A DNA stretch of 64,000 nucleotides from Eucommia ulmoides (Eukaryota > Streptophyta > Magnoliopsida > Garryales > Eucommiaceae), in assembly GCA_016647705.1 (NCBI GenBank), contig CM028326.1, forward strand, positions 26,412,901 to 26,476,900, given 5' to 3'. The position numbers were made by a program, and so were the translations under genes. The notes beneath the pieces are model-generated. The model saw only the letters and a list, made by a program, of their open reading frames with translations. It made no database searches and was not told the origin of the DNA. Of the stretch, positions 9,801-64,000 are shown one piece after another (the first letter of the stretch is position 1; every line of letters starts with the position of its first letter).

Positions 9801-11098
9801 TAAAAGCCAACAGTTCGCGGTTTCGATTTTGATTTTGGTTTATATCAAATTAAAAAATCTTAACGGTTTCGCGGTTTTGGTTTTGCATAAAATTAAACGG
9901 TTTGGTTTTAAACCCGTTTTCTAAAAAACCAACAGTTTTGATTTTGGTTTTGGGTTTGGTATATGTTTAACGGTTTTCGTTTTGGTTTCTAGTGAAACAG
10001 GCCCAAAAACGAACCTTTGCCATCCCTATATTTGAATGCTTTACATATCCATTTATCAGAAGAAAATGAATAATGCCTCAAAGATACACAAGCAAATATG
10101 ACATTTAATTCATTTTAGTTACCTCATCTGGTTGTAACAGAGGAACAGCAACAACTTTTAATCCTGGTAGGTAACCAACAGTTAATAAGATACCATTACA
10201 CTCACTTATGGATAAATTTTCTTCCTCATCCTCAGTCTCCCACTTCACCTGAATATTTTGTGTAAAAACAAAAACATGCAAGAAAGTTTCAACCTCAAAC
10301 ACCCAAAAAAAAAAAAAAAAAATCATTACTATCAATACAATAAGCTCTTAACCTCCTTGAACTCATCAGTAAGCGCATCACTACCCATAACTCCATAGGA
10401 CACAGAAGTAACAACTGGAGTTTGTGAACCCAATTTTTTGGTTATCTGTACGATTAACTCAAACAATGAAAAGCAATCCAAAAAAAAATTAAAAAAAAAA
10501 CAATTAGATGTGTATATTGTATATGACTGCTGATCATCGGTGGTATGCAGATATATATATATGAAGAGAGAGAGAAATTTATACGAGCTTGTGTGTCTGA
10601 CTAAGGCTAAAGAAGGGGCAAACTGAGACGATAGCAAAATGCGGTCGAATAGGCTCCGATAGGACCTTATCAAGCACCTCATTCACGGCATCCTATGATA
10701 ATTAAGGGAAAATTAAAGCATCAAGTGTTATCTATACTGTCCAAACCATATACAAGGAGAATATGCGGCGAAATGTAGAAAAGAAATCCAGGGGTTAGGT
10801 TTTGCATAACGTTAAGTACCTGTTGAGAAGAATTGAGAGATAAGGCGGAGGAGAGCTTGGGGAGAGAGAGGACGCGGTTGCAGATGGCGTTCCATGAGCG
10901 GCTAACGCATGCCGCGGACGCGAAGGACGAGGCCGGGAGTCGAGAGAGTATGTTCTGCAGAAGGTCATCGCCGATGAGATCCACAATGCCTCCTCCTCCT
11001 CCTCCTCCAACTCCCCCTTCCCCTCCCTCTCCCCTTGACAAAGAAGCTGAAGCCTCTCGTCTTGGTGATTGTCGCCGTCGGTTTCTGTTCCTCGCCAT
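3198..11098 (-). CDS. F-box protein with FIST_N/FIST_C domains (At5g63520-like)
   Basis: Ten coding exons read on the minus strand: 11098-10820, 10692-10585, 10445-10353, 10248-10123, 9244-9143, 9015-8976, 7514-7362, 6083-5902, 5047-4929 and 3648-3198. Every junction is GT-AG and phases agree, giving 1653 nt, 550 residues. An in-frame TAA directly precedes the ATG, so the start is firm. Residues about 39-80 form an F-box (DLIGDDLLQNILSRLP, then VSRSWNAIC) after an Arg-rich and poly-Gly leader. Residues about 115-300 match FIST_N (TSVSYGVMGSDAL, SPAGIIMFG, VIVGDGGSRFLYNGG). The rest matches FIST_C (GDEEYLFVSDVGIRTGDSFR, GIPLAGTFCAGEIG). F-box proteins are usually SCF ubiquitin-ligase substrate adaptors; FIST is a proposed ligand-sensing domain. 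Substrate and ligand are unknown. Arabidopsis At5g63520 (called F-box/LRR) is the best remembered match, of similar length. All exons are intact, despite transposons in introns 4, 8 and 9. Confidence 0.93.
3781..3825. repeat. Compound microsatellite (TATG)n(TG)n(TA)n
   Basis: Simple repeat in the last intron (3649-4928) of the F-box/FIST gene: TATG units, then TG, then TA dinucleotides, followed by a GAA-rich tract. Confidence 0.9.
4409..4802. mobile_element. MITE-like element in intron 9 of the F-box/FIST gene
   Basis: About 390 bp, rich in A and T runs. The ends are imperfect inverted repeats (CATCGTTGGTAACGC at left; the right end reads as TAGTTTGGTACCGG when complemented). A diverged second copy lies in the next intron at 5101-5830, which supports a repeat family. 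No target duplication could be set with confidence; the terminal phrase looks hAT-like. Confidence 0.55.
5101..5830. mobile_element. Second copy of the MITE family, with another MITE inside
   Basis: Shares blocks with 4409-4802 (AAGCAAAAGCAAAAAAC, GCAAAACAAATG). It is interrupted by about 340 bp at 5212-5551, whose ends are inverted repeats (TAGGGAACATTTGATTGTCC against TAAGGATTCGTTTGGTTGTC). Both lie in intron 8 (5048-5901) of the F-box/FIST gene and do not reach an exon. Confidence 0.55.
7278..7323. repeat. 23-bp direct tandem duplication
   Basis: GGAATAACTGAAGTGATAAG occurs at 7278 and again at 7301, inside intron 7 of the F-box/FIST gene, about 40 bp beyond the exon 7 donor. Confidence 0.85.
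9232..9553. repeat. 152-bp tandem duplication spanning an exon edge and a hAT end
   Basis: Copy A (9232-9383) and copy B (from 9384) share CTACTCGTGGTTCCTGATAT, the following block and the first about 39 bp of a hAT element. On the minus strand the unit contains the intron 4 acceptor and the first 13 bases of exon 5. The junction is a near-repeat: AACCGGACTACTCG in copy A against AACCGAACTATTCG in the intact element. Copy B carries two small insertions. The event post-dates the hAT insertion, because hAT sequence is inside the duplicated unit. Confidence 0.88.
9517..10028. mobile_element. Non-autonomous hAT element in intron 4 of the F-box/FIST gene
   Basis: 512 bp with perfect 12-bp terminal inverted repeats (TAGGGATGGCAA / TTGCCATCCCTA), flanked by perfect 8-bp direct repeats TATTTGAA at 9509-9516 and 10029-10036. 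An 8-bp target duplication is the hallmark of hAT. The interior is made of reiterated CGGTTTTGGTTT-like phrases and has no transposase. A diverged relative lies near 51560. Confidence 0.93.
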
Positions 11099-11288
11099 TT
11101 ACAAATCGGCCGGCAACGACGTTTGCTGGTTCGGTCGGTCTCAGTTATGTAATTTTCTTCGAATAAAAGAAAATTGACATTTAGAATCTTGTCTCTGTTT
11201 ATTGAATTAATTAAAATTTTAATATTTCATGTCTAAGAATTTTAAAAAATATATAAATTTATATTTTAAAAAGTGATACCTATACCAT
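11099..11288 (-). promoter_or_regulatory. 5' UTR and proximal promoter of the F-box/FIST gene
   Basis: Sequence upstream of the ATG at 11098. Only about 190 bp separate the start codon from the target duplication of the foldback element at 11289, so the transposon forms the distal promoter. The first 80 bp are GC-richer and probably transcribed. No clear TATA box was seen. Confidence 0.45.
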
Positions 11289-12169
11289 GTAATTAAGGAA
11301 AATGACGTTTGGTCACAAATAGTTTTGGTGTTCAATTGATCCTTGGTATTTAAAAATCGACGTATTGAGTATTTAACATTTCATTTTCATTCCAATTGGT
11401 CCATTAGCGAAATTTTATTAAGGAGTGATTTTATTTGGGCCCAAAAAGTCTACTGTTTCTTATTTTTAGCCTCACTTTTCTTTTTCTTTTTTCTTTTTTA
11501 TGAAAACTCCGTTTTAAAAAGATATTATTTTTTATGATAAAAATACCCTTAATTAATTTTTAAATAATAAATACTAGCCATCCACAGTAAATATTTAAAG
11601 GAAAAATACCAAATAGTCTTGTTAAATTAACAAATCTACAAGATAGTCTATAATGTTTTTTTTTTTTTTTTTTTTTTTGGCACCAAATAGTCTCATTAAA
11701 AGTGCTTGATTGCACCAAATACTCCTAAATATTTTAAAGTGATGAATTTATCCTTCTTCACTGTTTCGCCTTCTTCATTGATTCCTCATTTCCCTCTCGC
11801 AATCTTCCTCTCCAATTTTCCTCTACCTCTCGCAATCTTTCTCTTTCTCCATAGTCCTTGCTCTCCGTCATCACCAACGTCGTCAATGTTTTCAGAACCC
11901 TCGCAATTAGTTAATTTAACTAGATGAAGCAATTGGTGAAGAACAGCCAAACAGGGGAGAGAGAAAGAGATCGACCTCGAAAGAAATTTTAGGGGTTTTC
12001 TAACTTTTCTTCATGGATGATTTTCATTATGAGGAGAAATTAGTTCTGCCTATTGGACTTTCAATGGGATCTTCAATCTATCTACTATCTAAAATAGAAT
12101 CGAATCGCCTCCCTCGAACCAGCAAATCGAATCAAGAAGCAACGAAGGGCAGATCTGAAACTCCGGCCA

Positions 12170-12320
12170 TCGTGATCTAAAACTTCCACAACATATCGCC
12201 ATACCTGAACACCTTTGCATACGTCGATGAAGATGACCTTGTCGTAGTAAGTGAGCTGCCATAGCCTTGGCGTAGTCGATGAACTTGTTGTATTTGTACT
12301 CGTTGTAACTGTTGTTACTT
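12170..12320 (-). pseudogene. Fragment of a GUX-type (PGSIP) glycosyltransferase gene
   Basis: On the minus strand one frame reads YNEYKYNKF and a second, slightly downstream, reads RLWQLTYYDKVIFID. Together they recall the conserved block YNEYNYSKFRLWQLTDYDK-IIFID of plant glucuronic acid substitution of xylan (GUX, GT8) enzymes, which add glucuronic acid to xylan in the Golgi. About a dozen extra bases and a frameshift separate the two pieces, and the DxD that should follow IFID is missing. It lies inside the Pack-MULE-like element, so it is read as a captured, dead fragment. Another GT8 member, such as galactinol synthase, fits less well. Confidence 0.62.
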
Positions 12321-12457
12321 TGCTTTTCGCAAAGTAAGAAACAGGCAAATTTCACAGCAATTGATCGTGTTTGAGACGAACCCTTGCAAATCACGATTTC
12401 GCAGAAATTTCGCAATGCAACGCAGAAGAGAGAGAAGCACTAGAGAGAGAGAAAAGC

Positions 12458-12676
12458 ATGGTTGCAACAGTGAGCACTTGGGCTAAACCAGGGGCATGGG
12501 CCCTTGATTCGAGAAGCACGAATCGGAGCTCAAGCAGGCGTTTGGCAGAAACGATGCCCCAGGTTCGGCGGCGCTTTCTGACTTCCTTTCCCTATTCGCC
12601 GCCACTACAACCAAGTCAAAGAAGAAGGGCCAGACAATTTCTCTTCAGGAGTTCACCACTTACGATGCCAAAAAGG
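12458..12676 (+). pseudogene. Captured first exon of an eIF4B-like gene
   Basis: Starts MVATVSTWAKPGAWALDS. After a small frameshifting deletion near 12512, another frame reads HESELKQAFGRNDAPGSA, then LSDFPSLFAATT, a KKK run and GQTISLQEF. The pattern AWA-x-DFPSL-x-KKKKGQT-x-SL-x-EF is that of the N-terminus of plant eIF4B-like RNA-binding proteins. The exon ends at a good donor (AAAAAG then GTAAAG at 12677), followed by intron-like T-rich sequence, so genomic DNA rather than cDNA was captured. About 70 bp of AGAG-rich leader precede it. The frameshift makes it non-functional. Confidence 0.62.
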
Positions 12677-12841
12677 TAAAGCAAATTGATTTTTTTAGGT
12701 CTTGTATTGATTTGGTTCATTTGTTTTAATTGATTTAATTGGAATTTAGGATTCATCAGATTGGATTGATTTGGTTTGTATGGATAAAAATTAATTATAT
12801 GATGCAAGAGAGAGAATTATCAATTTGAATGAATTTAACAC

Positions 12842-13346
12842 AATTTCGTGTTATATTCAACACGAGATCGTGTTCAAGACGAACAAAATGATCATGTTCT
12901 CCTTTAATTGATTCAATATATTGCTTTGGTTGATTTGTATTGATCTAGGTTTTGTATTGATTTGGTTGATTTGAATGGTATTTAGAATTTATTTGGTTAG
13001 ATGGATTTGGTTTGTATTGGTAAAAATCAAGTAAATGTAGGAGAGATGAATTGATTTGAATGGAATTTAAGGTTTATTTGGTTGGATTCATTTAGTTTGT
13101 ATTGATAAAAAGAAATTATCATTTTGAATAAAAAAATTAGAATGTAACACGACCTCGTGTCATATTCAACACGACACGATTTGATATTGTGTTGAATAAT
13201 GAAAAAAGTATAATGTAATACGACCTCGTATTATATTTAATACGAGATCGTGTTAAATATAACACGATTTGAAATTATATTGAATGTAACACGATATGAT
13301 ATTGTGTTAAATATAACACGACTCTCGTGTTGAATATAACACGAGG
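12842..13346. repeat. Array of short palindromes built on ACACGA/TCGTGT
   Basis: About a dozen copies of AACACGA, TCGTGTT or variants (TAATACGA, TCGTATT) occur in both orientations, mostly as imperfect palindromes such as AACACGAGATCGTGTT and ATACGACCTCGTAT, densest at 13140-13346. Between them are ATTCAA/AATATA spacers. Inside the Pack-MULE-like element, 3' of the eIF4B-like fragment. Confidence 0.8.
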
Positions 13347-13925
13347 GATAAAATTGTCACAAAAAATAAAAGAACTATTTTGTAACATATTTTTAAAAAA
13401 TATGTATTTAGTCGTTTTATCCCCATATGAGGATTTTTTGGTAATTGCCCAAATATTTAATTATTACCATCATCACCATAACAAAAAAAATCTATTAGAA
13501 CCGCCACTACCACAACGAACACTCCTATCAACACCACCACCACAATAAATATTTTTCATAACCACCACCACCACCACCATAAAAATTTACTATTATAATT
13601 ACAATAAACATTCTTATTATCACCACCCTACAATAAATATTTGTTATCAACGCCGCCACCTCCATAAGAATAAATATATTAACTATTATCACAATAAATA
13701 TTAACTAACACCATCACAATCACCACAAAAAAAAAATTATATTTCACCGCCACAACCACCTCAACAACAAAAATCAAAATTATATATAAAAAATAAAAAT
13801 ATAATTTTGACTGGGAAAAAAAAAAAAAAAACCGCAGCGACGGCCGCCACGACGGCGAGATATGGCAGTCGCGAAGGCCATACCAAGCCGCGACGGCCTG
13901 GGTATGGCTGTCGTGAAGGCCAGAC

Positions 13926-14160
13926 CAGGCCGCAACGGCCAAATTTGGTCGGATCTGGCCGTAGAGAGAGAGGGAGAGAGAGAAAGATAGACGGGTTGCT
14001 GGCAGTGGCGGTGGCGGTGGCCGGTATTGCTCGCGGCCAGAACTAGGCCCGACGGCCAAATCTAGCCGCAGAAAGAGAGGGAGAGGGAGAAGGAGAGAGA
14101 GATGGGTTGCTGGCGATGGCGACGGTGGTGGCCTGTATTGTTCGTCGACTGGAGGCGGAG
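13926..14160. repeat. GC-rich tandem duplication, period about 117 bp
   Basis: ACGGCCAAAT recurs at an offset of 117 bp, followed in both copies by a GAGAGAGGGAGAG tract, GGGTTGCTGGC and GGTGGCC(G/T)GTATTG. Lies in the GC-rich block of the 11423-14437 insertion. Preceded by a CACCAC-rich low-complexity stretch. Confidence 0.75.
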
Positions 14161-14681
14161 GTGGTGTCGAGAAGTGGCCAGACGCTGCCAGATTGTGGTC
14201 GTCGCATTCCAATACGGCCGGAGACGGTGGCGAGAAAAATAGGGGCTTTTGGGGTTGACTGCAAGAGAAGATGGTTTGTAGGGTTTGATTATCAATTGAA
14301 GGATAGTTTTGGAAATTCCTTCTTAATTTATGGGGTTTTTTTATTTTTGTTTTATAGATGGTGTTTTAGTAAAAGATAATTATGGGTCATGACCCATTTT
14401 AATTATTTACTTAAATATGGGTTATCTTCAATTATACATTTTGTTAAGTCAAACTAACAATCAACGTTTCATTAAGGACATTTCAGTCATTTACGACCCC
14501 AACTCATTTTCCTCCCATTTCCTGTTGATGTTTTCAGTGATTTCTTTGCTTGGCAACCTATAAATACTCTTCTCTACCCATCTTTATTATTTATTCTCTA
14601 TTTTCACCCTAAAAATATTCTTTCTCATTCTTATTTCTTCTTTGTCCAACAAAAATTATGGAGAAATAACAAATTTGTAAT

Positions 14682-16314
14682 GGAATTTTCATTGTTTGAC
14701 ACAAATTTCACACTCTTTTTCCTTAATGAGCTTTTTTAACAAAAATGTTATTATTAATTCCCCTCTTAGTATTTAGTCTTAGTATTTAGTCTTTTGATAG
14801 TTAATAATGAACTTACAATTATACTCCTATATTTATATCAACCTTAATCTAACACACACCCATATCCCCTATTCCTCCTCTTTTCCATCCACCGTCCCTC
14901 TCTCCCACCAATCCATGTCCACTTTCTTTAAGCAAGCAAGCAATTATTTATTTCCACTTTCTTTAAGCAAGAAATTGTGAGAAAGCAAAACCAAACCCAC
15001 CTAGTTTCCAGTCGACAGCCGTTTCTTTACTCTGTCCCTCTCCATTTGTATCAGCAGTTCGTCCGTTCATCATGGTCATCATCGTACTGCCATTTATCGT
15101 TATTGCCATTCATCGTCACCGCCAATCGTCCGTTCGCATTAGGGTTCGCAATCGCCGTCTGATGTTCGTTGTTCGTCCATTCGCATTAGGTTTCATAATT
15201 GATGTCTGATCTTTGTCGTTCGATTTTCTTCGCCATCTGATGTTCGTCATTCGATTTTCTTCACCGTTCATCATGCGATTTTCTTTTTCGTTTGTCGTTT
15301 GATGTTTGCCGTCAGATCTCCGTTCTTGCTTTCAGATTTATGATCTCGGATATCTTTCGCCTAACCGGAGTGTTCGTCTAATGCCGAATCTCAGATCTGC
15401 ATCTTCGGATCTCGGATCTCATATCTCAAATCAAGGAAATCTCGCTGCTCTTTCTCTCTCTAGCTCCTTGTTCTAGAAAAGTGCAGATCTCGTGAATATT
15501 CATGTTTGGTGAATGTTCGTTTTGATTTGTTGGTCGTTTGTTGATTTTTGGTAGAGGTTTTTTTGTTGTTGTTGATTTTTTATGGAGTTTTTTGTTCAAT
15601 CATTATGAATGTTTGTGTTGATTCTGTTTTATTTCTTTGCGATGTTTATATTGATATTTTTTGTAAATGTTCGTTGTTGTTTTGGTAAATGTTCGTATTG
15701 TTTCATATTTGTATTGATTTGTTTGGCTTTTGTTGATTTTTGTAGAGTTCGTTGTTTATTAATTTTGCAAATGTTCTCTTCTTGATTTTTTTTAGCACAA
15801 ATTGTGATCTATTTTAATTTGTTTAAAATGATTTGTTTTGTTTTTCGTGAATGTTCTTGCGGTTTTTTTTTTTTTTGTTAATGTTTGCACCAGGTTGGAT
15901 TTGTTTTGATTTTGTTCATTTTGTGTTATTCATGTGATTGTTCTTTTCTATGATCTTAATTTTTTTTTTTTAATGTTCTTGATTTGTTTTTTGTGAATGT
16001 TCGTGTAGATTTCAGTTTTTTTTTTTTTATTTAGTATTCGAATAAACATTCACAATAGTACAATCAGTGTTAAAATATATTAAAATATTTAAAAATAATA
16101 AAATAAAAATTTGAATATTAACGTCGTGTTATATTTCATAGAATGATATTATATGTAAATAATAATAATAATAAAAAAAAATAAAATAAAAAAAAAGGTC
16201 AAAAAACATAGGATTATTTTCTAAAAATCTTGAGGGACTAAAAAATTTCTTATGGTAGTTGAGGATTTATTTTCTCATTTATATGTTTCTTAAGGACTAT
16301 AAAAAAAAATTCTC
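14682..16314. mobile_element. Non-autonomous MULE inserted in the foldback left arm
   Basis: 1633 bp flanked by a perfect 9-bp direct repeat ATTTGTAAT (14673-14681, 16315-16323). The insertion is confirmed because the foldback right arm reads straight through this site. The left end is GGAATTTTCATTG; the right end complemented is GAGAATTTTTTTTTATAG, a weak inverted repeat. The interior has GTTCGTC/ATCGCCG-rich leader-like sequence (15000-15480), then many copies of GTGAATGTTCG or AAATGTTCG in T-rich sequence (15490-16060). No transposase. A relative is at 17990-21049. Confidence 0.82.
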
Positions 16315-16323
16315 ATTTGTAAT

Positions 16324-17883
16324 TGTGGAAGGAAAGGAAAAATTGTAATTTCTTGGATTGCACATAATCTTGGAAGGAAATTCTACTCTTGTGGAAATTA
16401 CAATCAGTTATTTTTTTATACCATGTTCATCAAATATTTGAAAAAATTCTAATTTAATTTTCTAAGTTAGAGGTTGTGGTTATTTATTATGGGTTGATCA
16501 TCCTATGTGTCCAAAGTCAGCGACAATAATACTGGGATTATTAAGAAAAATAAATGTTCTAGAAGAGGAGAATAACCGAATGAAGAATAGAGAGAAAAAG
16601 TTGGGGATAACATTAGTCGTTTCATGTGTAGTGTTTATACTCATTTGGAAATAAACCGTATTTTAAATATTTTATTGAATTTTGTTTAATTAATGGTGTA
16701 TTTCGTACTTTATTTCCTAATGAAACTACATAAATAAATGGTGATTTTGTATTTTGAATGCTATTTATTGTTTAACTCAAAAAATAAAAAATAAAAAAAA
16801 TAAAAACAAACAAACAAAACTTAAATTTCATTCGTCACCAAATAATGTATTTATTCATCACCAAACAAACCAAACAGTGTATTGATCAGATATATGCATT
16901 GAAATAATGTATTGATCAAAACCAATACACTGTTTTGATGGTTGTTTGTTGGTTGTTTGGTTGTTATTGGTTTTGATCAATACACTGTTTCAATGCATAT
17001 ATTTGATTAATACACTATTTGATTTGTTTGGTGATGAATGGAATTTAAGTTCTGCCTAGTGTTTTTATTTTTTATTTTTAGTTAAAAAATGAATAACGTT
17101 CAAAATACAAAATCACCATTGATTAAAGTAGCTTTATTAGGAAAAAAAGTACAAAATACACCATTAATTAACACAAAATACAATAAAACAATGAGTGCAA
17201 ACACCACCCGTGAAACGACTAATGCTATCCCTAATTTTCTCTCCTTATTCTTCCTTCAATTATTCTCATCTTTTAAAACATTAATTTTTCTTAGTAATCC
17301 CAGTATTATTGTCACTGACCTTGAACACACAGGAGGATCAACTCATAAGAAATAGTCACAACATCTAGCCTAGAAAATAAAATTAGACATTTTTTAAATA
17401 TTTGATGAAAATGGTATAAAAAAAAAATACCTTATTGTAATTTCCACAAGAGTAAAATTTGCTTTCGGGATTATGTGCAGTCCAAGAAGTTACCATGTTT
17501 GTTTTTTTCTCACAATTACAAATTTGTTGAGTCTCCATGATTTTTGTTGGACAAAAAAGAAAGAAGAATGAGAAAATGTGTTTTTAGGGTAAAAATAAAG
17601 AATAAATAATAAAGATAGGTAGGGAAGAATATTTATAGGTTGCCAAGGAAGGAAATCACTGGAAAAATCTACAGAAATGAGAGGAAAATGAGTTGGGATC
17701 GTTAAATGACCGAAATGTCCTTAATAAACCATTGATTGTTAGTTTGACTTAAAAGAATCTTGCTTAGAGGACAATTTGGAACGAAAATAATATGTTAAGG
17801 ACTCAATGTGTCGACTTTCAAATACCAAGGACCAATTGAACACCCGAGCCATTTGTCAGGGACCAAAAATGTCATTTTCCCAC
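16324..17883. repeat. Inverted repeat forming the core of the foldback element
   Basis: Arms about 16324-16927 and 16966-about 17510 pair over their length around a loop of about 40 bp (TTGTTTGTTGGTTGTTTGG). Matching phrases include TTGATCAAAACCAATA against its complement, AATAATACTGGGATTA (16527) against TAATCCCAGTATTATT (17294), and GTGGAAATTACAAT against its complement near 17440. A transcript would fold into a long hairpin. No conserved ORF. Confidence 0.85.
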
Positions 17884-18629
17884 GTAATTATTATATTTTA
17901 TGGTATTTATTGTTTAAATCTTATTTAATAATTAATATAGAAATTAAAACAAGTAAACATTTAGTTTATTTTTTAGTCTAATCCTTATAAGTAATTTATT
18001 TTTTAAACATTGACAGTTGAAAAAGGACAATGAATGGATAAATATGTCCTTGGGTGTATAATGAAGAACCTTAATATTCCCTTTTTTTTTTTCAACTGAC
18101 CTCTCTCTCTATCTCCATTTTCAGCCGCAATCTCACAAGCTGTCTTGCTCTTTCTCTCATTTCTTTATCTCTATTACTCACAGCCGCAAGCCCGACACCC
18201 ATCGCCACCGTGAACCATCTCAGTGCTCGTCTCCATGCTTTCCGTTCCAGATCTGCTCATTGCTCGCTGTGCCGTTCATCGTGTTCTTTTTCTCTCTCTC
18301 TTTTGCAAGCTCCACATCATTTTCGCCATCGCGAACCATCGGAGTCATGGAATCGCCGACCATCGCTTTCTCTCTCTGATTTGGAAAATTTCATATTTGA
18401 AATTTTCAAATCTGTGAATGTTCATATAAATTTTTATTGATTCTTGTGGATTTTTTTGTAAATGTTGGTTTGGTAAATATTCACACCGATTTGTTTTTGT
18501 TGATTCTAGGATTTTTTATTATTTTCAATTTGTTCTAAAATATCGAGTGAATATTCACAAAAGTGTACGTTCGTACCAATCTTTTGATTAAATGAGTAAA
18601 ACATTCGAGTGAACATTGAGTGAAATATT

Positions 18630-20759
18630 TGTTGGCATAGTGATCTACCTAAGAAGGGGTGAATTAGGTAAATATAAAAATTTAAAGAAAATTCTTATCT
18701 TTCAACAATTAAATATTCAAATAATTAATTTAATCCTAAATTAACTATTATCTTTATATAGCAGCGAATAAGTGTATAAATCTAGGTGTACATTCAAACA
18801 ACAAGAAATAAAGAAAATTAACAATACAGTACACCACAATATATCCTGGTTTACCAAACTAATCTTGGCTAATCCAGTTTTCCAAGCCTTACGAAAATTC
18901 ACACCCACTAAACCACTAGATTTCTTTAACAGGTAGGAACCAAACCTTTACACAACGATTATTTTACAGGCTCAGAATCAACATTTACAATTTTCTTTTC
19001 ACAGGTTAAAGAATAACCTCTATCTTTTTAATAAGATAAAGACTAATCTAATTATTTTATACTTTAGGAAAATAATCAAATTTTACCAAAAACACTCCAA
19101 GTATCATTTTCACTGGTAAGGATAGAACCGTTACAATTTACACAATTTTAATTCTAATGAAAAACAATCACGCCTAACTCTTTTCAAGAGAAAAGAGTAA
19201 CCTAACATTTTTGTACATTAGGTAAAGATTAAACCTCAATTTCTTTATTGGAAGAGATTGAAACCCTTGCTACCCCTGACTAGATACTCCCAACAGTATC
19301 TAATTCGCACAGACTCCCCAATTACAAAAATCGATAAGTTTCTTTCCACTTGGAGTTTCTACTACTTCAAATCAATATAAACTCAATTAATGTCTCGATA
19401 ATTACTACTGATAGAATTTACGTGAGGAATACAATATCTAATTATATTAAGTATGGATAGCACAAAATTGAGCACGTAATCAGATTATAATAAAAATCGT
19501 TTAAAAAGTTTTTTTTTTTTTTTTTTGCCTTTAAGGTTCAAAAACAATTTCACAAAAGATCTTTCAACAAAGCAATCAATAATAATTTAACTTCACAATT
19601 AAGAATAAAAACTTAGAAAGATCTCACCAGGATACCATCGAAAGAATGAAAATTGAATCGTTAGACAGTTTTGATCGGTGACACCAAAACACTTAGTGCT
19701 TTAACTTAAGAACTTCTCAAATATGGTTTTTAAATCATTCAATTTAGTCCTCAAATGATTTCTCATTCTCAAATCAAAAGGATAGGAAGTATTAAATAGA
19801 CTAAATTGAGAAACACTTAAAATAAATGTACCATATCTATAGGGATATTAAAATAAGTGTATCACATCATTAATATATTTAAATCCCTACAATATCTTGC
19901 TCAGATATCCCAAAAAGGGCTAGTTAACGGCTAATTTTTGAATAGTTCCTCGAAATTCTTAAAATCTAAGACAACACAGTCAGTTGACCGATCATAGGCC
20001 ATCAGTTAACCGATGATTTCAAGTTGTAGCCCAAGCCATTTCTCAAACAATGGTCGGTTAACCAATCCCCATGGGTCAATTAACCAATCGATACAAGATG
20101 CAAAATCAGGCCAAATTTCGGCCTTGGTCGGTTGACTAATCATCGATGGTCAGTCAACCGATCGATATAGAAAGTTTAGGTATCGGTCATCGGTTGACCG
20201 ATCTCCCTTGATTAGTTGACCGATCGATTCAGAGACTTTCCAATTCTCCAACCCTTGCTCGATCGACAGATCCTTCAGGTCGGTTGACCGATCACTGCTA
20301 GAACTCATTCTCTCAAATTATTTTAACTCCAAAACTTCAACGTTTTCGACCCTTTAACCGATTTTTTTTCTCAGTTAACTAAATTTACACTATTAATCAC
20401 TTTTAAACACTAATCTTACTTAGGTCAATTTTTCTTTTTCAATTTCACATTGGAGCAAATAATTTAACTAAATTAGGATCCTATTATAAATACACATAAA
20501 TAACCACATAAATATCAATCATTTAATTCGTGTTATGTGTGATCCTAATCGAGATATATTAAGAGTAAAAATGAATTTGAGTTGTTTTCACCTAAATTCT
20601 TCAGAATCTTCAATCTTTTAATGTCTGTTTCTACATCATTCACAATTTTTTCATGATATTATCTTGATTGGAACTCATTAAACTGAAACACTCAATAAAC
20701 TCATTAGTTCCACAAAAAACATCAATATTTAATTATCCATCAAAATTTCAGGATCAACA
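18630..20759 (+). mobile_element. Solo LTR, 2130 bp (W-box-rich family, copy 1)
   Basis: Begins TGTTGGCATAGTG and ends GGATCAACA, with a perfect 5-bp target duplication ATATT at 18625-18629 and 20760-20764. TG...CA ends plus a 5-bp duplication identify an LTR. No internal region, PBS or second LTR is adjacent, so it is solo. The opening phrase (AAGAAGGGGTGAATTAGGT) is shared with the inverted copy at 23115-26387. The superfamily cannot be set from an LTR alone. Confidence 0.87.
19975..20300. promoter_or_regulatory. Cluster of GGTTGACCGATC-type motifs in the solo LTR
   Basis: Around ten exact or near copies of GGT(T/C)(G/A)ACCGAT or complement in about 320 bp, mostly paired about 20-30 bp apart. 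Many contain TTGACC, the core of the W-box bound by WRKY factors. The same clustered design appears in the copies at 23570-24790 and 63340-63620. A regulatory role is inferred, not shown. Confidence 0.55.
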
Positions 20760-21049
20760 ATATTATTTTGGAATATTGAGTGAACATTCACACAGAAATG
20801 AACATTCACAGTAACACAATCAACCCCATTAACATGTATTAAATGTTAAAAATAACAAAATATGTTAAATATTTTATATTCAGTGAATGTTCACATATTG
20901 TTATATCTCATAAAATGATATTTTATGTAAATTAGGGGAAAATAATGGTTAAAGAATATGGACTATTTTTTTAAGAAAAAAACTTTGAAGACTGAAAATA
21001 TAATTAAAGTAGTTAGAGGTCTATTTTATAACTAAATAATAAAATTTCC

Positions 21050-21905
21050 TTATATTTCTATCAAAATGATATTGAGACAACTTATTTTAAAATTTAAGCT
21101 ATATTTTAATATGAAATCTCTTTAAATTTTAATTTATTTAAAAAGTACAATTAAAATTAAAATATTAATTTAAAAAAAAATACTTGTAATTAAAAATATG
21201 GCTTTTTCCCTTCCTTTAAAAGATAAAAAAAAAAATAGTAATTAATAATAACTACTTTGCCCTGATGACACATGTTGTTACTTAGGCAACTAGGCCCGAA
21301 TTGTTTTGTTGCTTATTGGCTGGTTCCAATGAATGAATTCTCTATTATTAACTCTTAACTCATTTATGCTAGTAATCTGTATTGAATCTCATATCACTTG
21401 TGTTACTTGATCCTGAACTACATATAAAGCCTAAGACAATCCTTATGTTAGAAGGCGTCTTTTACGAGTGAGTTAGGCCCATTGGGTTCTACAATCTAGA
21501 ATTTGATTTCATATGGACTGAAAAAAGAGGAATAAATATTGAAATTTGTTAATGAAGAAAAATTAGAGTTGAAAATAAAGAAACTGATGTTGAATTCAAT
21601 CGGAAAGACATTTGCTCATGCAGACAAAATACGGAGAAAACATTATTCCGAAGTTCTCCAAGGCAAATTCCTTTTAGTGTCGATGAAATGTAACAACAAA
21701 CCATTTTAGTTGCTATCAAAATTTATCATGCCAAACTCTGTCCCGTGCAAGCAAAATGCAACAAACTTTGTTGTTGTCTTCTTTCGCTAAGACGAAATTT
21801 GTTCGTGTGGTTAGAATTTCCAAAAAGACTAAGGTCCCGTTTGATAACGCAATTAAGTACTTAAAACTGAATATATAAAGTACTTATCAAATTAAGTGTG
21901 TGTTT
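21050..21905. other. AT-rich sequence, no gene recognised
   Basis: No conserved ORF. The patch at 21285-21500 (ATAAAGCCTAAGACAATCC, GAGTTAGGCCCATTGGG) resembles retrotransposon flanking sequence but was not identified. Around 21830 the phrase GGTCCCGTTTGATAACGC looks like a MITE terminus. Confidence 0.35.
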
Positions 21906-22930
21906 TGTTAGACAAAAATGATTTTTAGACTATTTTAATTCTAATTATTTATGTGATTTAATTATTGATTGATATATGTTTATATACCAATACGTTAGTC
22001 TTAGTGAGAAGACAAATGTGAAATTTTGATTTGTAAAAAATCATTAAGATATGAATGAAAAATTGTCTTTCAATATAGTCCTATGAAGTTAATTGAGGTG
22101 TGTAAACCAAGTAATTCCATATTGGTTAATAAAAAATACTTAAACTACTTTTATAATCCATTTTGGATTGTGGATCCGGGTCGGGTCATGGTTTTGGGCT
22201 TGGACTTGGGTTGATCCAAGTAAAGAGAATTCTTTCTAGAATTTTCTTTAAATTGATTCTAACAATTTTTCTAGCCAAATAAGACTTATCTTTTAATATT
22301 TGTAAATCATTTTTAATATGGAATTACATGTGATAATTCTTAGTGGCTTTAAATTGTTTTTAGTGGTTTTAAAATGAGATTTTTGGTATGTTGAAGTTAC
22401 TCATTTGTTTACTCTATAAATAGATATATTTACATTATCATTTAGGTATAAAATGAAACTTAAGACATCTTACACTACACATACACTTTGAGTCTATATT
22501 TGTTTATTCTTGAGAGAGAGTTCAACATTTGTTTTGTTCGCCGGACCCTTTGACTTTGAGTGCTAGTATTAGAGGATTGTGATCGTTGTATCCTGAGAAG
22601 TAAACGTCTGAGTACCCGTAAGCACCTTAACGGGGGTGAAATTTGCTTTAAGAAAATATCGTTAAATGATAGCCTTGATCGATATAAGTACTATTTTCAT
22701 GTATTTTATAATCTGGAATACTTACTGTCGCATATATTGGGTTTCTAAATACTTGTTGTGTAATGTTTTACATTTTGTAATATTTTACATTCAACCACAA
22801 ATTTCATTAAGAGTTTATTTTTTTATTATTTATGAGTATTAATTTATTGTAATATATTTGTGACATATTTATTGAAAATAATACTAATATTAATTAAAAT
22901 TAGTATTTTTATCATTATTTCCAACAATCT
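21906..22930 (+). mobile_element. LTR-like retrotransposon remnant (probably copia)
   Basis: Contains a promoter-like CTATAAATAGA near 22415 and, downstream, the CGTTGTATCCTGAGAAG and CACCTTAACGGGGGTGAAAT phrases that I associate with plant copia LTRs. Possible ends are TGTTAGAC at 21906 and CCAACA near 22926, but no matching 5-bp duplication was found. Its last about 135 bp recur at 30735-30890. Confidence 0.5.
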
Positions 22931-23114
22931 TAAAGTAATTTTTTTTTTCTGTTATTATTAATTAACACATGTGTAGGTGTTCTATGTGGTGGTTGAGATT
23001 TCTTAATATGTGTCTCGTTAGTACATGTCATGGTAAGTATTTCATGTTGATATTTGACAATGAATAATTTATGGTTATGTGATGTATTAAATTATTATTG
23101 TCCATAAAGTTATT

Positions 23115-24169
23115 TGTTGATCTCGAGATTTTGATGGACAATTAAGTGTTGATGTTTTGGTGTAACTAATGAGTTTATTGAGTGTTTCAGTTTAAAAAGT
23201 TCCAATCAAGATAACATCGTGAAGTAATTGTAAAGGATGCAAAGACAGACATTAAGAGAATGAAGATTCTAAAGAATCTAGGTAAAAATAACTCAAATCA
23301 TTTTTACTCTTAATGCATCCCGATTAGTATCACACATGACACAAATTAAATGATTTATATTTATGTGTGTTTAAATTAAGATCCTAATTATAAATCAAAT
23401 ATTTGCTCCAATGTAAAATTGAAAAAGAAAAATTGGCGTAAGTAAGATTAGTATTTAAAATTTATTATTAGCGTCAATTTAGTTAACCGAGAAAAAAAAA
23501 TCGGTTAAACGGTCGAAAATGCCGAATATTAGATTTGAAATAAATTAAGGAGAACGTGTTCCAGCAACAATCGGTTAACCAACCAAGGAGGTTTGGTCAA
23601 CCGATGGGCAATAGCTGGAAAAAAAGATGTCTCTAAATCGATCAGTCAACCGAACCAAGATAGATTGGTCAACCGATTGCCAAAAGCTAAAGTTTCTCTA
23701 TCGATCGATCAACCGACAATTGATGATCGGTTAACCGACTAGGGCCGAAATTAGGCCTGATAATGCATCCTGTATCGATCGGTCAACCGACCCATGGGGA
23801 ATCGGTCAACCGACCTGTGTTTGAGCAAAGGATAGGATACATCTTGTATGTAATACCCCAAAAATTTATATTTTTGAAGAAAAAAATATTATTTATATAA
23901 GTTTAACATTTTAGGACTGTTTTGTAAATTTACGATATAAATAAATTTGATAATTTTTTGGAGTTAAATATTAATTTTATATTAACTTTTAATTATTTTT
24001 GGACTACTGTGTATTTAAAAATATATTTTTAAGAGTTTTGGGATATAATTAATATTTTTTTATTTTAAATGGGGTATTATGTAAATAAATAAATTAATGA
24101 ATAAATGTGGCTGGATCATGTCCTTCTTAAATAATGAAATGAAACTAACCACAAATATGTTATATATAG

Positions 24170-24209
<40 letters not shown>

Positions 24210-26387
24210 CATATTATGAATGGTTTTTCTTAAGCGAGAAAATTACTTCGGTTCAGATTTCGGCTTCGGATTTCAGATAGAATTTCTAACTCTTTTAATA
24301 TATGTATTTAATTTTCCTAACATGTGATTTATGTTATTATTGTTGTTGAATTTTAATTGTTAAGTTTTATGAAATAATTATGATTATGTGGAAATTATAT
24401 CGAATACATGTTTATGTGTTTATTTGTTGCATTAAATTAGATACACGTATTAGATGGGTTGAAATTCTACCAAACGTAGGCTCATAACCTCACAGTTTTG
24501 ATTACAGGACCGGTGAGAATGAAACGGCGACATAAATTTCATTCGAATTTCTATTTGTAATAATTGTATTTATTATTTATTGTTTGAAAAATTGAATCAA
24601 TGTATTCGATAAATATAATTGGTCGTCATAGAGTTATAAAATTTATTGGATTTTATAGAATAAAATATTGGTCATTCGGTGTTAGTATTAATTCCCCAAG
24701 GACAAAAACTACGTGGCGTCCCTGGAAAACCAGGCTGTTGCAATGTATCCATCGGTCGACCGATGGGCAAGTCGGTCAACTGACTGGGCTGTTTCAGATT
24801 TCAAGGATTTTTGGGATTTAATCAAAACTAGCCGTTATTTTCTTACTTGAATAAAATATCTTAGGGATTTGGATATATTGATGATATGTTATTCATATAT
24901 CCCTATAGATATGGTACATAAAATATTAGTGTTTCTCAATTAAGTACATTTAATATTTTCTATCTATTTGATTTGAGATTGAGAATTAATTTGGGGACTT
25001 AATTGAATATTTTAAAAGCCATATTTAAGTGAATTGGACCAAGATTAAATAGTATTGACATATGGGGTTTATATGTGCATTTAATTGTTATATCTTGAGG
25101 GAACTAGCCGTTAGAGGGCCTATTTCAAATTAGCTTAAATAAACGTGCATTTTTTTTTAGATCAACACTTCACTTCCATCAACAACTAATTGTTCCTAAG
25201 CTTTCAAAGAGTCATTATTCTGATATTTTCTTGAGAGGTCATTGTGAGATCATTTTGTGAGAAAGGTTCTTGAGTTAAAGCGTTAAGTGTTTTGGCGTCA
25301 CCGATCTAAGTTGTCTTGCGATTTATATTCAATCTTTCGGTGTTATCCTGGTGAAATCATTCCAATCTTTTGTTCTTAATTGTGATTTTATATTGTTATT
25401 ACTTGCTTGGATATAAGATCTTTGTGAAATCGTTTTTAGAACTTTAAAGAGCATAAAATTCTTTTAAAACGATTTTTGTGATAATCTGATTACGTACTTA
25501 TTTTTGTACTACCCACACTTTATATAATATTTGCACTTTATATAATCAGATATTGAATTCTTCACGTAAATTCTATCACTAGTAAATTCAAGACATTAAT
25601 TGAGTTATATTGATTTAAGATAGTAGAAGCTTCAAGTAGGAATAAATTCATTAATTCTTATAATTGGTGAGTTTGTGCAGATTCGATACTATTGGGAGTA
25701 TTTAGTCAGGGGTAACTTGGGTTTCGATCTCTTCTAGTAAAGAGATTGAGGTTTAATCTTTATCTATTGCATAAAAATGTTAGGTTACTCTTTTCCCTTG
25801 AAAAAAATTAGGTTTGATTCTTCCTAATTAGAATTAATTGTGTGTAAATTGTAACGGTTCCATCCTTACCAGTGAAAATGATACTTGGAGTATTTTTTTG
25901 TGAGGTTTGATTTTTAGCCAAAGGTATAAAAGGATTAGGTTGTGATTATTCTTATAATAGAATTAAGTTAGTCTTTAGTTTGGTAAAAAAAAATAGAGGT
26001 TCTTCCGTATCCTGTGAAAAAAGAATTGTAAAGGTTGATTTTGAGCCTATGAAAAGAATCATTGTGTAAAGGTTTGATTCTTACCTATTAAAGGAATCAA
26101 GTGGTTTAGTGGGTGCGAATATCCGTGGGACTCGGAAGACTAGATTAGTCAAGAGTAGCTTGGTGAACCAAGATATATCCTTGTGTACTGCTTTATTTAC
26201 TTTATTAATATTTTGTTGTTTGGGTGTGCACCTAAATTAAATACACTTATCCGCTACATTATAAAGATAATAATTGATTTAGTATAAATTGATTATTTGA
26301 TTATTTAAGTGTTAAAAAGATTAAAATTTGATTAAATTTTTATAACTACCCAATTCACCCCCTTTTGGGTGGCTCACTGGGCCAACA
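23115..26387 (-). mobile_element. LTR of the W-box-rich family, inverted copy with a nested solo LTR
   Basis: Reads TGTTGATCTCG at left and ends TGGGCCAACA; complemented, the right end (TGTTGGCCCAGTGAGCC) matches the start of the LTR at 18630. Shared inner phrases include GTGTTTTGGCGTCACCGATC and ACGGTTCCATCCTTACCAG, complementary to 19680 and 19120. Without the 894-bp insertion it is about 2.38 kb. The flanks TTATT and TCTTT agree only partly. The GGTTGACCGA motif cluster lies at 23570-23815 and 24750-24785. Confidence 0.75.
23849..24742 (+). mobile_element. Solo LTR, 894 bp, nested in the inverted LTR
   Basis: Begins TGTAATACCCCAAAAATT and ends GGCTGTTGCA, preceded by ACGTGGCGTCCCTGG. This resembles Ty3/gypsy-type LTRs that start TGTAA(T/C). 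The flanks TTGTA and ATGTA match in 4 of 5 bases. Contains a (TA)n run at 24174-24202. Its removal rejoins the surrounding LTR. Confidence 0.65.
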
Positions 26388-60666: not shown

Positions 60667-61964
60667 TAAGTTAAGATATTCATAAAGAGGACAGTCAAAT
60701 TATAAAATAAATAAATTTATATTTTACATTGGTAGATCAAATTAATCGTGTCATTTCATATAATGAGAGAGAGATAAGCACGAACATATATATATATGGA
60801 ATGGACTACAATATAGAATTTTTGGATGTATAAATATATCCAAAGAAGTTCATTGCAAAGAAAGTTGAGTTTCATTCGAAAAGAGTTATATGTCCATATA
60901 TAGAAGTTACATTTTGTCTTATTACCACATGTTACAAATTCATTTTAAAAAAATTGCATGTTTATATAGGAATATGTAAATTCTTCGACGCGGATTTATA
61001 ATGAAAAATGAATGTAAGGAATAAGTAAATTCTTCGACACGAATTTATAATTAAAAAAATGAATGTATCAAATACTTTAGTAAAATTCTATACATATATA
61101 TGTGGGGGAGGGGGGGCAATGATTAGTTATGTAATAATGTAAAGGAGAGGAAATGTGAAGGAAGCGAAGAAGCCATTAAAATCTGGAACCAACCAGGGTC
61201 AGAGCGGTAGCAGTGATTACAAATATATTTGGATGTGATATCTCTCTGATTTTCTTCCCCCACCCGCACATTTTTCTAAAGCGTCTGCAAATTAAAGTAT
61301 GGGACCCTTTTTAAATTGATTCTCTCTCATTTTCTGATCTCAAAAATATATACAGTTTATTTTTCATTTTAAAGCTGACAGTATCTTTTTTTTTTTTTTT
61401 TTAAAAAAATAAAAATGTAGAGAATCAGATTTTGTTTGAAAAGTGTATTTGATTTTTTTTTTTTAAAAAGTAAATTTAATAATAGAATTCATCACGTGGA
61501 TAAATTATTACTGATATTTCCTATTTGACGTGATAATCACAAAAATTTCTTTTAGAATACGTTTGAGGAATGATTGAAAATAAAGACGAAAGGATAATAT
61601 TTTTATTTATTATAAAAATATATATATATATTTTTTTTAGTGTTATTTGGTTGAAAAAAAATAAAAATAATTTACTATTTTATCCTATAAAAGTAAATTA
61701 AAAATTATATTATTAAGGGTATAGTTGTAATTTTACTCAGTTTCCTCCACTTTTCTTCATTTTCTTTTCTAATTTGTGTGGAAAAAAAATTATTTCGAAA
61801 ATTGTGCATTTTTCTTACTATTTTTTTCTTTCCATTTTTTATCCATACCAAACAAGTTTTTTCTTTTTTTTTTTTTTTTTTTTCCATCCATTTTTCATCC
61901 AACCAAACACACTCTTATTGGAGAAAAATAGGGATCAATTAAGTTCTTTAAACACAAATAATTA
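60667..61964. other. AT-rich intergenic sequence
   Basis: No conserved ORF. Two related blocks, TAAATTCTTCGAC(G/A)CG(G/A)ATTTATAAT, lie at 60977 and 61026, a 49-bp tandem duplication. A G-run near 61103 and long T runs at 61389, 61454 and 61866. Nothing identified. Confidence 0.4.
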
Positions 61965-64000
61965 ATTTTTTAAAATCAATTATTATCATGATACGCAGAG
62001 GACATGTGTTTAATATCAAGTGTACACCCAAACACAATATAAATAATAATCAATGCAGCATACAATAATTTATCTTGATTTGGTCAAGTTAATCTTGTCT
62101 ACATCTAGTACCCCGAGCTCAACGGAGATTTTCAATCCACTAACCTCTTGATCCTTTTATCAGGTAGGAACCAAACCCTTACGACTCACGATTCTTTTAC
62201 AAGCATAGAATCAACCTTTACAATTTACCCTTTTCACAGGCCAAGAATGAACCCTATTTTTTTACCAAGTTAAAGACTAATATGACACTCTCTTACTTAT
62301 CCTTTTCACAGGGAAATATGAACCTTTACAATTCCTCAAAATAATTCAATTGCAGGATAAATTAAAATCTAATTCTTTTCAAGAAACAAGAATAACCTAA
62401 TCTTTTGTACCAAGGCAAATATCAAACTCTAATACTTTTCATAGGAAAAAGATCGAAACCTAACTACTTTGAATAGATACCATCTCAAACATGTCTAATC
62501 CTCTCAAACTTACAAATACAAAAAATATGAGTTTCTTCTTATACGGAACTTCTACCACCTCAGTACAAATATACTCGATTAATGTCCAAAATAATTACTA
62601 CGTGATAGATATAATGTGAGACAATTAAAATAAATAAAGTGGGTAGCACAAATTTAACACGTAATCAAATAATCAGGTAAAAATCGTTTAAAAAAGATTT
62701 TCAGGCTTTTAAGTTTAAAGCGATTTTCTAGCAATCTTAAACTAAGAAATCAAGATTAATATAACTTTAAAAAACAAGTAATAAAACTTGGATGGATCTC
62801 ACCAGGAAAACACCGAAGAGAATAACAATATAACAAGTCGAACTCAATTCGGTGATGCCAAACAGCAAGCGCTTTAGATCAAGAACTTATATAAAACCAC
62901 TCTTCCAAATCTAAGCAAAAATCTCACTCTCATAATATCTCAAATTGATGTTTTTGATGTGTCTAATTCAATTCCCACATATCTCTATTAATAGACCAAT
63001 AATCAGCCATCCAACGAATAGTTTTTCAAAGATATGTCATTAAATGACATTCTAAGGCCCCATATAACATATCCTATCAATAGAGATATGTTTCACTTAA
63101 AAATATATTTCAAATCTCGTTTCTAAGTCCATAAAACTATTCCCAATTTAAAACCACAAGAATAGGAAGTATTAAATCATTTAAATTAAGAGAATATCAA
63201 AATATATGGACTATATCAATAGGGATTACTAAAAAGATTGTTCATATTTGAAATACATTTAAATATGCCAAATATCTCTCTTGGAATCATAAAAAAAGAT
63301 AGGTTTTGACCAAGAGATCAAATCAGCTGAATTGCTGACTGAAGCAATCGGTTGGCCGAGCCACACTATTCGGTTGACCGACCTGTGCCAAGGCTGAAAT
63401 AGCCGTTGGTACTGCACTAGTTGGTTGACCAACCTACCCAGTCGATTGACCGACTGGATCAGTGGGTTTCCCCCTTTTCACCCACTGCATCCACCGAATC
63501 AAATGGTTGATCGATCCTAACTATTCGGTTGATCGATTTGATCAAAGTGATTACTTTCACATCCATTTTTGCCACTGTTTCAAATGGTTAATTGATTACT
63601 TTTCTCAGTTGACTGATTGGATCAGTAGAATTCTACTTTAACTCTAAAAACTCATTGTTTCATTAAGACGACGACCCTTTTTGTCGATTGACCTCGAAAA
63701 CACAATATTTTACACTTTAAAAAGCATTTTTCAATTAAGTCAATTATCAAAATAATTTCACATAAGAAGTACATAAAATATTTCATTTTAGAATTTTAAA
63801 CTTATCACTTTTTATCACGACAGACATATAATTAACTCAATTCAAATGTCGTGTGTGATTCTAATTCGGGTTGTATTAAGAGTACATAAGTAAAAGAGTT
63901 ATTTTCACATATTTTTCTTTAGCGCCTTCAAAACTCTTCATATTTTCGTCATGTCCATCTTACACCCTTTATGTTTTCCTTATCAAATTTTCTTCTTAAT
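61965..64000 (+). mobile_element. W-box-rich LTR family, copy 3, cut by the window edge
   Basis: Follows the LTR at 18630 in the same orientation: AAGTGTACACCCAAACA (cf. 18785), CAGGTAGGAACCAAACC (62161; cf. 18931), TCTCACCAGGAAAACACCG (62797; cf. 19622), GGTGATGCCAAACAG (62851). The GGTTGACCGA motif cluster is at 63340-63620. Its first about 150 bp are absent or too worn to align, and the 3' end lies beyond the window. Confidence 0.7.

Follow-up and report, generated by a model that had tools for sequence, protein, structure and literature searches.

Foldback elements of Eucommia ulmoides probably derived by inverted duplication of the GRF-gene half of a two-gene Mutator-like element

Mu killer (Muk) of maize is an inverted duplication of half of a two-gene Mutator-like element (MULE), including the terminal inverted repeat (TIR) and a gene, and a hairpin RNA has been proposed as its product (PMC3440606). 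One study saw shorter antisense transcripts, which are offered there as an alternative model. In the present study, we analyzed a foldback element at positions 11296-17881 of a 64,000-nt stretch of Eucommia ulmoides DNA (assembly GCA_016647705.1, CM028326.1, forward strand 26,412,901-26,476,900; hereafter, the window), together with its relatives in the host genome. These foldbacks are most probably non-autonomous MULEs, in which the half of a two-gene MULE that carries a GRF zinc-finger gene was duplicated in inverted orientation and the transposase half was lost. As in Muk, half of a two-gene MULE with its TIR and gene was duplicated in an inversion. However, Muk duplicates the mudrA (transposase) half and is described as a locus (PMC3440606), whereas here the duplicated half is that of the accessory gene, and the product is mobile, multi-copy and apparently arose at least twice. 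No inverted transposase gene was found in these foldbacks; the duplicated gene is GRF.

Other described elements share some of these features. The foldback elements FARE of Arabidopsis and Tm1 of Meloidogyne have long inverted ends, and Tm1 has 9-bp duplications (PMC3169594; FARE as presented in that text). However, the TIRs of Tm1 and FB are composite with internal repeats (PMC3169594), whereas the arms described here are gene copies without such arrays. The multiple- and tandem-TIR MULEs of Ferguson and Jiang (2012) were also rearranged and were amplified after terminal duplication, but their TIRs are mostly tandem (PMC3310237), whereas here the TIR and a gene were duplicated in inverted orientation.

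A sequence-only reading of the window had described the element as a single foldback MULE hidden by nested insertions. When the right arm (16966-17883, reverse-complemented) was aligned with the left-arm blocks 11296-11422 + 14449-14681 + 16324-16927, 784 of the 900 aligned positions were identical (87.1%), with 82 gap columns. The alignment scores of the three blocks (118, 324 and 626) far exceeded the respective maxima of 200 shuffles (32, 45 and 41), and the same arm pairs were recovered by a separate repeat search of the window; the similarity of the arms is thus well above background, as that reading had supposed. The loop at the centre is present, although its length is 38 nt (16928-16965) rather than 40 bp, and the ends of the element were refined to 11296 and 17881, the latter in place of 17883. 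The element is flanked by a 9-bp repeat, ATGTAATTA on the left (11287-11295) and ACGTAATTA on the right (17882-17890), with 8/9 positions identical; the flanking GTAATTA noted before is there, but is only the common core of this repeat. A minus-strand F-box open reading frame (ORF; Pfam F-box, E=8.6e-9) begins at 11098, 188 bp from the left duplication, in agreement with the earlier placement of the element about 190 bp upstream of the F-box gene start.

The long TIRs, with ends resembling GGGAAAATGAC (AGGAAAATGAC at the left end of the window copy), and the flanking repeat, which falls in the range of 9-11 bp target-site duplications (8/9 in the window), are those of a MULE. The architecture, mainly long inverted arms around a short centre, is that of a foldback element. 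Internally repetitive composite TIRs were not found by Tandem Repeats Finder in 16324-17881; at low threshold, the program gave eight rows, all of 18-41 bases and composed of A/T-rich or loop runs, with no array running through the arm. Among nine direct-repeat families of at least 30 nt in 10800-18600, one alone (D9) lies in the arms, at the edges of the loop.

The earlier view that the element was almost nothing but a hairpin has to be revised, since in each arm a TATA-type promoter precedes a decayed gene of two exons, which encoded a small GRF zinc-finger protein and is assigned below to a two-gene MULE. In the right arm (16966-17881, minus strand), the order inward from 17881 is TIR, TATA box (17639-17630), GRF exon 1 (17538-17431, open), intron, exon 2 (from 17369, with two stops) and 3' region. 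The left arm (plus strand) is in three blocks. Block 1 (11296-11421) is the outer TIR, beginning with AGGAAAATGAC, and its identity to the right arm is 81.7% (126 positions). Block 2 (14448-14681, 88.8% identical to the right arm) contains the remaining 5' flank, a TATA box (14557-14566), the GRF start codon (14658) and the start of exon 1, which is broken by a stop and by a later insertion. Block 3 (16324-16927, 87.8% identical) contains the end of exon 1, the intron, exon 2 (16466-16654, with 62 codons open) and the 3' region; its exon 2 appeared in the protein search of the genome as a stop-free match to the GRF protein (C2:26429366-26429551). The window copy is an old, decayed member of its family with both genes broken.

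In a consensus built from 67 arms (the right arm of the window and 66 arms of the 39 relatives described below), a gene of 98 codons is open across two exons, which are separated by a GT...AG intron. Its product has a match to the Pfam GRF zinc finger (E=1.7e-11); beyond this, a charged segment and a hydrophobic C-terminus may correspond to a coiled coil and a membrane helix, respectively. Exon 1 of the window alone (36 aa) gave no Pfam match. A TATAAA box precedes the ATG by 99 bp in the window family and by 84 bp in a second, younger subfamily of palindromes.

For relatives of the window element, the host genome (947 Mb, 391 contigs) was searched with the right arm. Scoring of the best 40 of 1,715 first-look candidates gave 91 matches; sorted by hand, these fell on the window and on 39 further places, all of which were fetched. 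Tail-to-tail inverted pairs, in which a plus-strand arm is followed at most 1 kb on by a minus-strand arm, were found at 35 of the 39. Together with the MULE-type ends and the 9-bp duplications, these relatives bear out the description of the element as one foldback MULE. At offset 0, a 9/9 duplication flanks 9 of the 28 two-ended elements of the family (the window counted in) and one of at least 8/9 flanks 17, compared with 2 and 15, respectively, of 756 controls in which ends were mixed between different elements. The duplication of one of the nine 9/9 cases (L023) is a poly-A run, and the ends of L016 and L033, as set by the script, are doubtful. Within elements the arms are 84.3% identical, compared with 83.1% between elements.

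Several centres are common to several loci. At nine loci, about 300 bp separate arms that end near positions 921 and 486; other centres join arm positions of about 865/596 (four loci, two lengths), about 863/373 (four loci) and about 611/611 (three loci), and further types exist. Copies with a common centre and known flanks carry different duplications, except L029/L031 and L038/L039. Because the same centre types sit in different duplications, the foldback forms themselves moved. The two excepted pairs, with copies about 0.1-0.2 Mb apart and identical flanks, resemble local duplications rather than separate insertions. The middles of five of the nine copies of the type with about 300 bp between the arms were compared with L071, the two-gene element described below; there was no clear match, and one 50-bp hit at 74% was seen in L018. 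Uninterrupted copies, for which the sequence-only reading had proposed to search, were not found in the genome search as far as an intact copy with exactly the window's centre is concerned. Centres similar in sequence to the 38-nt loop are at C17:14384780 and C17:14394822; in the former (L009), the second arm is deleted, and L068 contains only a fragment of about 250 bp.

The 98-aa GRF protein gave 213 matches in the genome; these are partly listed, and the listed ones were compared with the best 150 of 2,936 first-look MULE transposase candidates. Among the matches listed, there are six loci at which 1.5-1.9 kb separate a GRF match from a MULE transposase match, and the two are convergent in 6/6. 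One of these loci, L071, is an element of 4,590 bp with both ends, a 9/9 target-site duplication (AAAACAAAA) and TIRs of 117 bp. It has a single GRF gene (one stop in exon 2), which lies outside the TIR, and its GRF side is 93% identical to the arm of the younger palindromes. Its open frame of 890 aa matches MULE (E=3.7e-17) and SWIM (E=3.1e-8), both above the Pfam cut-offs, with a MuDR DNA-binding match just below. For the other five loci (L072-L076), the GRF side alone was fetched; its match to the palindrome arm begins at position 1 or 3 and ends at 679, with an identity of 92-95% in four cases and of 79% in the fifth. Since the GRF gene is convergent with the transposase at six loci, of which L071 has both ends, we regard this gene as the second gene of a MuDR-like two-gene MULE. 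For the younger palindromes, the same ends thus surround a MURA-type transposase in L071; for the window family, this holds by homology only.

MuDR, Abermu with ORFR, Hiun with vanB/vanC, and the ULP-carrying MULEs likewise carry a second gene that runs opposite to the transposase gene, and they have TIRs of about 120 bp and 9-bp duplications (PMC9168764, PMC6446971, PMC2528002). However, their second genes are mudrB, vanB/vanC, ULP and ORFR, whereas here it is a gene for a GRF zinc-finger protein. The term GRF is absent from PMC6446971, and in the literature searched, whose coverage mostly leaves out subscription papers, we found neither GRF genes reported for MULEs nor spreading half-element palindromes, although such a report may be in print. 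The GRF zinc-finger gene may be added to the second genes of plant MULEs, probably as one that was once under constraint. Two further observations concern GRF-bearing sequences. At 293-491 of the L071 sequence, a further TIR copy in inverted orientation (293-469; identity to the family TIRs, 80-86%) adjoins the two-gene element head to head. Four GRF exon-2 matches on one short contig (C43:4409, 21252, 38137 and 55005) are spaced almost evenly, at about 16.85 kb, which suggests a tandem array with the gene.

The second subfamily, found through the GRF protein search, consists of 1.38-kb palindromes, of which 20 loci were fetched. The arms are about 680 bp long and 88-96% identical within a locus, and in L048 they are separated by 15 nt. 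With at most three mismatches, the genome contains the palindrome centre at 24 places (two of these belong to one locus and are separated by 67 bp) and the reversed-pattern control at none; 18 of the 20 fetched loci are among the 24 places. The two arms of an element are as similar to each other (94.8%, 20 pairs) as arms of different elements are (94.5%, 760 pairs), and the tree is near-star. It follows from this equality that the arms of the founder were practically identical and that the whole palindrome moved. Homogenization of the arms by gene conversion after insertion was rejected, since within- and between-element identities are equal in both subfamilies. When 1-base offsets were allowed, a 9/9 duplication was found at the own ends of 14 of the 20 palindromes and in none of 380 mixed ends; the palindrome counts are lower bounds, as the ends of at least L052, L058 and L067 were set wrongly by the script. 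The second arm stops inside exon 2 at a sharp breakpoint common to the copies. Of 29 exon-2 frames read, 13 continue through the centre to 99 aa and 11 end at 53 aa.

The explanation that we prefer, and consider probable, is as follows. The parent type carries the GRF zinc-finger gene at one end and a MURA-type transposase gene at the other, both read inward between the TIRs, as seen in L071. In the foldback, the transposase half is missing, and the GRF half, with TIR, promoter and two-exon gene, is doubled in a tail-to-tail arrangement. Both outer ends would still be good substrates for the transposase, and the foldback could thus be mobilized in trans and copied, leaving the duplications described above.

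Alternatively, a non-autonomous MULE may have captured a GRF gene of the host and duplicated it, and the two-gene elements would be secondary. Capture of host genes by MULEs is frequent. GRF genes also exist outside the family: that at C17:17584775-17585023 is 57% identical and has no stops, and around it (L070) no arm sequence beyond poly-A was found. The foldbacks contain GRF gene copies without a transposase; however, that gene is part of transposase-bearing relatives. The six transposase loci (L071 and L072-L076) all have the GRF gene in the same convergent position, with a GRF side that matches the palindrome arm over its length, and thus the GRF gene travels with the transposase. An origin as a Pack-MULE is, in our view, fairly improbable.

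It is also unlikely that the foldbacks are ordinary MULEs whose long TIRs grew inward until they met, in which case the GRF gene would be part of the TIR and no gene half was inverted. MULEs typically have TIRs of 100-500 bp (PMC3310237), and the nine-locus subtype, with inverted arms of 486 bp around a unique middle of roughly 300 bp, would agree with such growth. However, the TIRs of L071 are only 117 bp long, its one GRF gene lies outside them, and the common breakpoint inside exon 2 of the second palindrome arm is sharp.

Under the explanation that we prefer, we infer from the sequences at least two inversions, one for the window family and one for the younger palindrome lineage. The palindrome arms are 92-95% identical to four single-copy GRF sides, compared with about 70% to the window-family consensus in the 5' flank. 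As they are near the single-copy parents and far from the window family, the younger inversion was probably a separate one. At the position of the centre, the parental sequence reads TTTCATGGGTGGTGTTTGTTCTCAT in 4/6 loci (L074 is one base off, L072 several), and the palindromes read TTTCATGGGTGGTGTTTGTTATCATGAAAC. The younger centre may have arisen by snap-back priming, in which a 3' end closing in CAT would have paired with an upstream ATG, leaving the 15-nt loop. A longer palindrome that lost the stretch between two CAT copies would fit equally well. Within the window family, ten loci with arm ends near 863/865 have the motif CACCAAACAAATGCAT or a variant at the centre, and some centres look like one-sided deletions of one earlier palindrome. 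The proposal that every window-family centre type is an inversion of its own was dropped, since one palindrome with later one-sided deletions explains the CACCAAACAAATGCAT types equally well. The inversion of the GRF half and the loss of the transposase half are independent of the number of inversions.

Several observations weigh against this explanation or parts of it. No transposase-bearing element with the TIR of the window family itself was found, and the link of that family to a transposase is through its homology to L071 (TIR 79%, exons 90-92%). Four of the 39 relatives (L033, L036, L042 and L045) are not inverted pairs by the criterion used. The CACCAAACAAATGCAT centres suggest that several window-family types are deletion products rather than separate inversions, and a C-to-A difference beside the palindrome centre is unexplained. 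As for the gene, no more than 13 of the 40 arms of the palindromes retain ATG, frame and splice sites, as judged without regard to insertions relative to the alignment. Divergence is equal at the three codon positions within the window-family copies (9.6/9.9/9.1%), which indicates that the GRF gene was not kept intact after insertion. The values for the younger palindromes are 2.5/3.2/2.7%, and purifying selection on individual copies was rejected, since the codon positions are equal in both subfamilies.

In the moving lineage, the comparison of L071 with the palindrome consensus, in which exons differ at 6/269 and non-coding sequence at 35/406 aligned positions (Fisher p=4.5e-4), suggests that the GRF gene was under constraint. 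Between the arm consensuses of the two subfamilies, dN/dS is 0.34 (binomial p=0.04). This test is weak, because it includes only 20 changes and because conservation of the intron (57/60 aligned positions, 12 gap columns) equals that of the exons, which speaks against a pure coding constraint.

Two inward promoters over mirror-image genes would yield convergent transcripts and hairpin RNA. The part of the window element that is uninterrupted today (16324-17518) has a predicted RNA fold of -581 kcal/mol, compared with -223 +/- 9 for 12 dinucleotide shuffles. With these inward TATA-type promoters (recognized by sequence), the mirror-image genes and the strong predicted folding, long double-stranded RNA and 21-24-nt small interfering RNA (siRNA) from the arms are plausible, and the palindromes are natural candidates for the production of gene-silencing RNA. 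The plant could process the hairpin RNA into siRNA that targets GRF transcripts from intact elements, as has been proposed for Muk against mudrA. In contrast to Muk, silencing by the GRF foldbacks is something that we infer; both models for Muk, hairpin RNA and antisense transcripts, would apply to them as well.

It is possible, if on balance doubtful, that the GRF-half palindromes act as a version of Muk that moves and spreads by itself; they would ride on the transposase of the parent, silence its second gene by means of hairpin RNA from the convergent promoters and so end its burst. Should the GRF protein assist in integration or counteract silencing in the way of MURB or VANC, that function would be the one that the palindromes switch off. 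Furthermore, the palindromes contain frames that would encode a truncated GRF protein (36+53 aa) and another whose tail comes from the complementary strand (36+99 aa); both altered forms could act by interference. Muk is known from maize, and how often transposons generate their own silencers is an open question. One genome with at least two inversions of the same MULE half, of which one spread (centre at 24 places), provides replicated material for asking whether siRNA arises from inverted derivatives and whether these silence the parent elements and keep bursts in check.

Such an RNA could also be the reason for which the host kept the locus, and the foldback would then be an RNA-silencing locus rather than a by-product of transposition. 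The long uninterrupted hairpin near a gene and the precedent of Muk (PMC3440606) point in this direction. However, this is very unlikely, as the window-family arms decay evenly, with nearly the same identity within and between elements, and the window copy is broken by three insertions. Finally, that two members of one family inserted separately in opposite directions, as two TIR-ended sequences facing each other might suggest, is almost certainly wrong and was rejected, since the centre has no outer TIR, a single duplication flanks the whole, and the same architecture and common centres recur as inverted pairs at unrelated sites.

The left arm of the window element is split by three later insertions, and not two as the sequence-only reading had it; the first holds another inside. 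The outer insertion (11422-14438) is flanked by TTTTATTAA (11413-11421) and TTTTGTTAA (14439-14447), which are identical at 8/9 positions. Inside it, at about 11599-13450, is an insertion with the MULE-like ends GGAAAAATACCAAA and GGGCAATTACCAAA and a 10/10 repeat of 10 bp, AAATATTTAA, at 11589-11598 and 13451-13460. A relative at C15:5398673-5399356 passes directly from query positions 64-177 to 2030-2594; because this looks like the uninserted site, we regard the inner insertion as nested in the outer one. The remaining insertion (14682-16314) lies within GRF exon 1 of the left arm and has a 9/9 target-site duplication, ATTTGTAAT, at 14673-14681 and 16315-16323. The duplications of the outer and the exon 1 insertions were read by eye from the junction sequences.

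Within the nested insertion, 12458-12680 is similar to the beginning of eIF4B from plants, although at E=0.006 the Pfam eIF-4B match is below the cut-off; it has an apparent frame change and may be a captured gene fragment. Short inverted ACACGA/TCGTGT motifs are clustered as imperfect palindromes at 12832-13346, and the segment 13224-13346 recurs on both strands in many matches of the nested insertion. Adjoining the foldback element is a second, larger inverted structure (18630-26387), in which 18630-19719 pairs with 25258-26387 (77.6% over 1,145), 19716-20015 with 24750-25029, and 20020-20760 with 23114-23846. It has no listed ORF of at least 100 aa, and part of it recurs in inverted orientation at 61955-62886.

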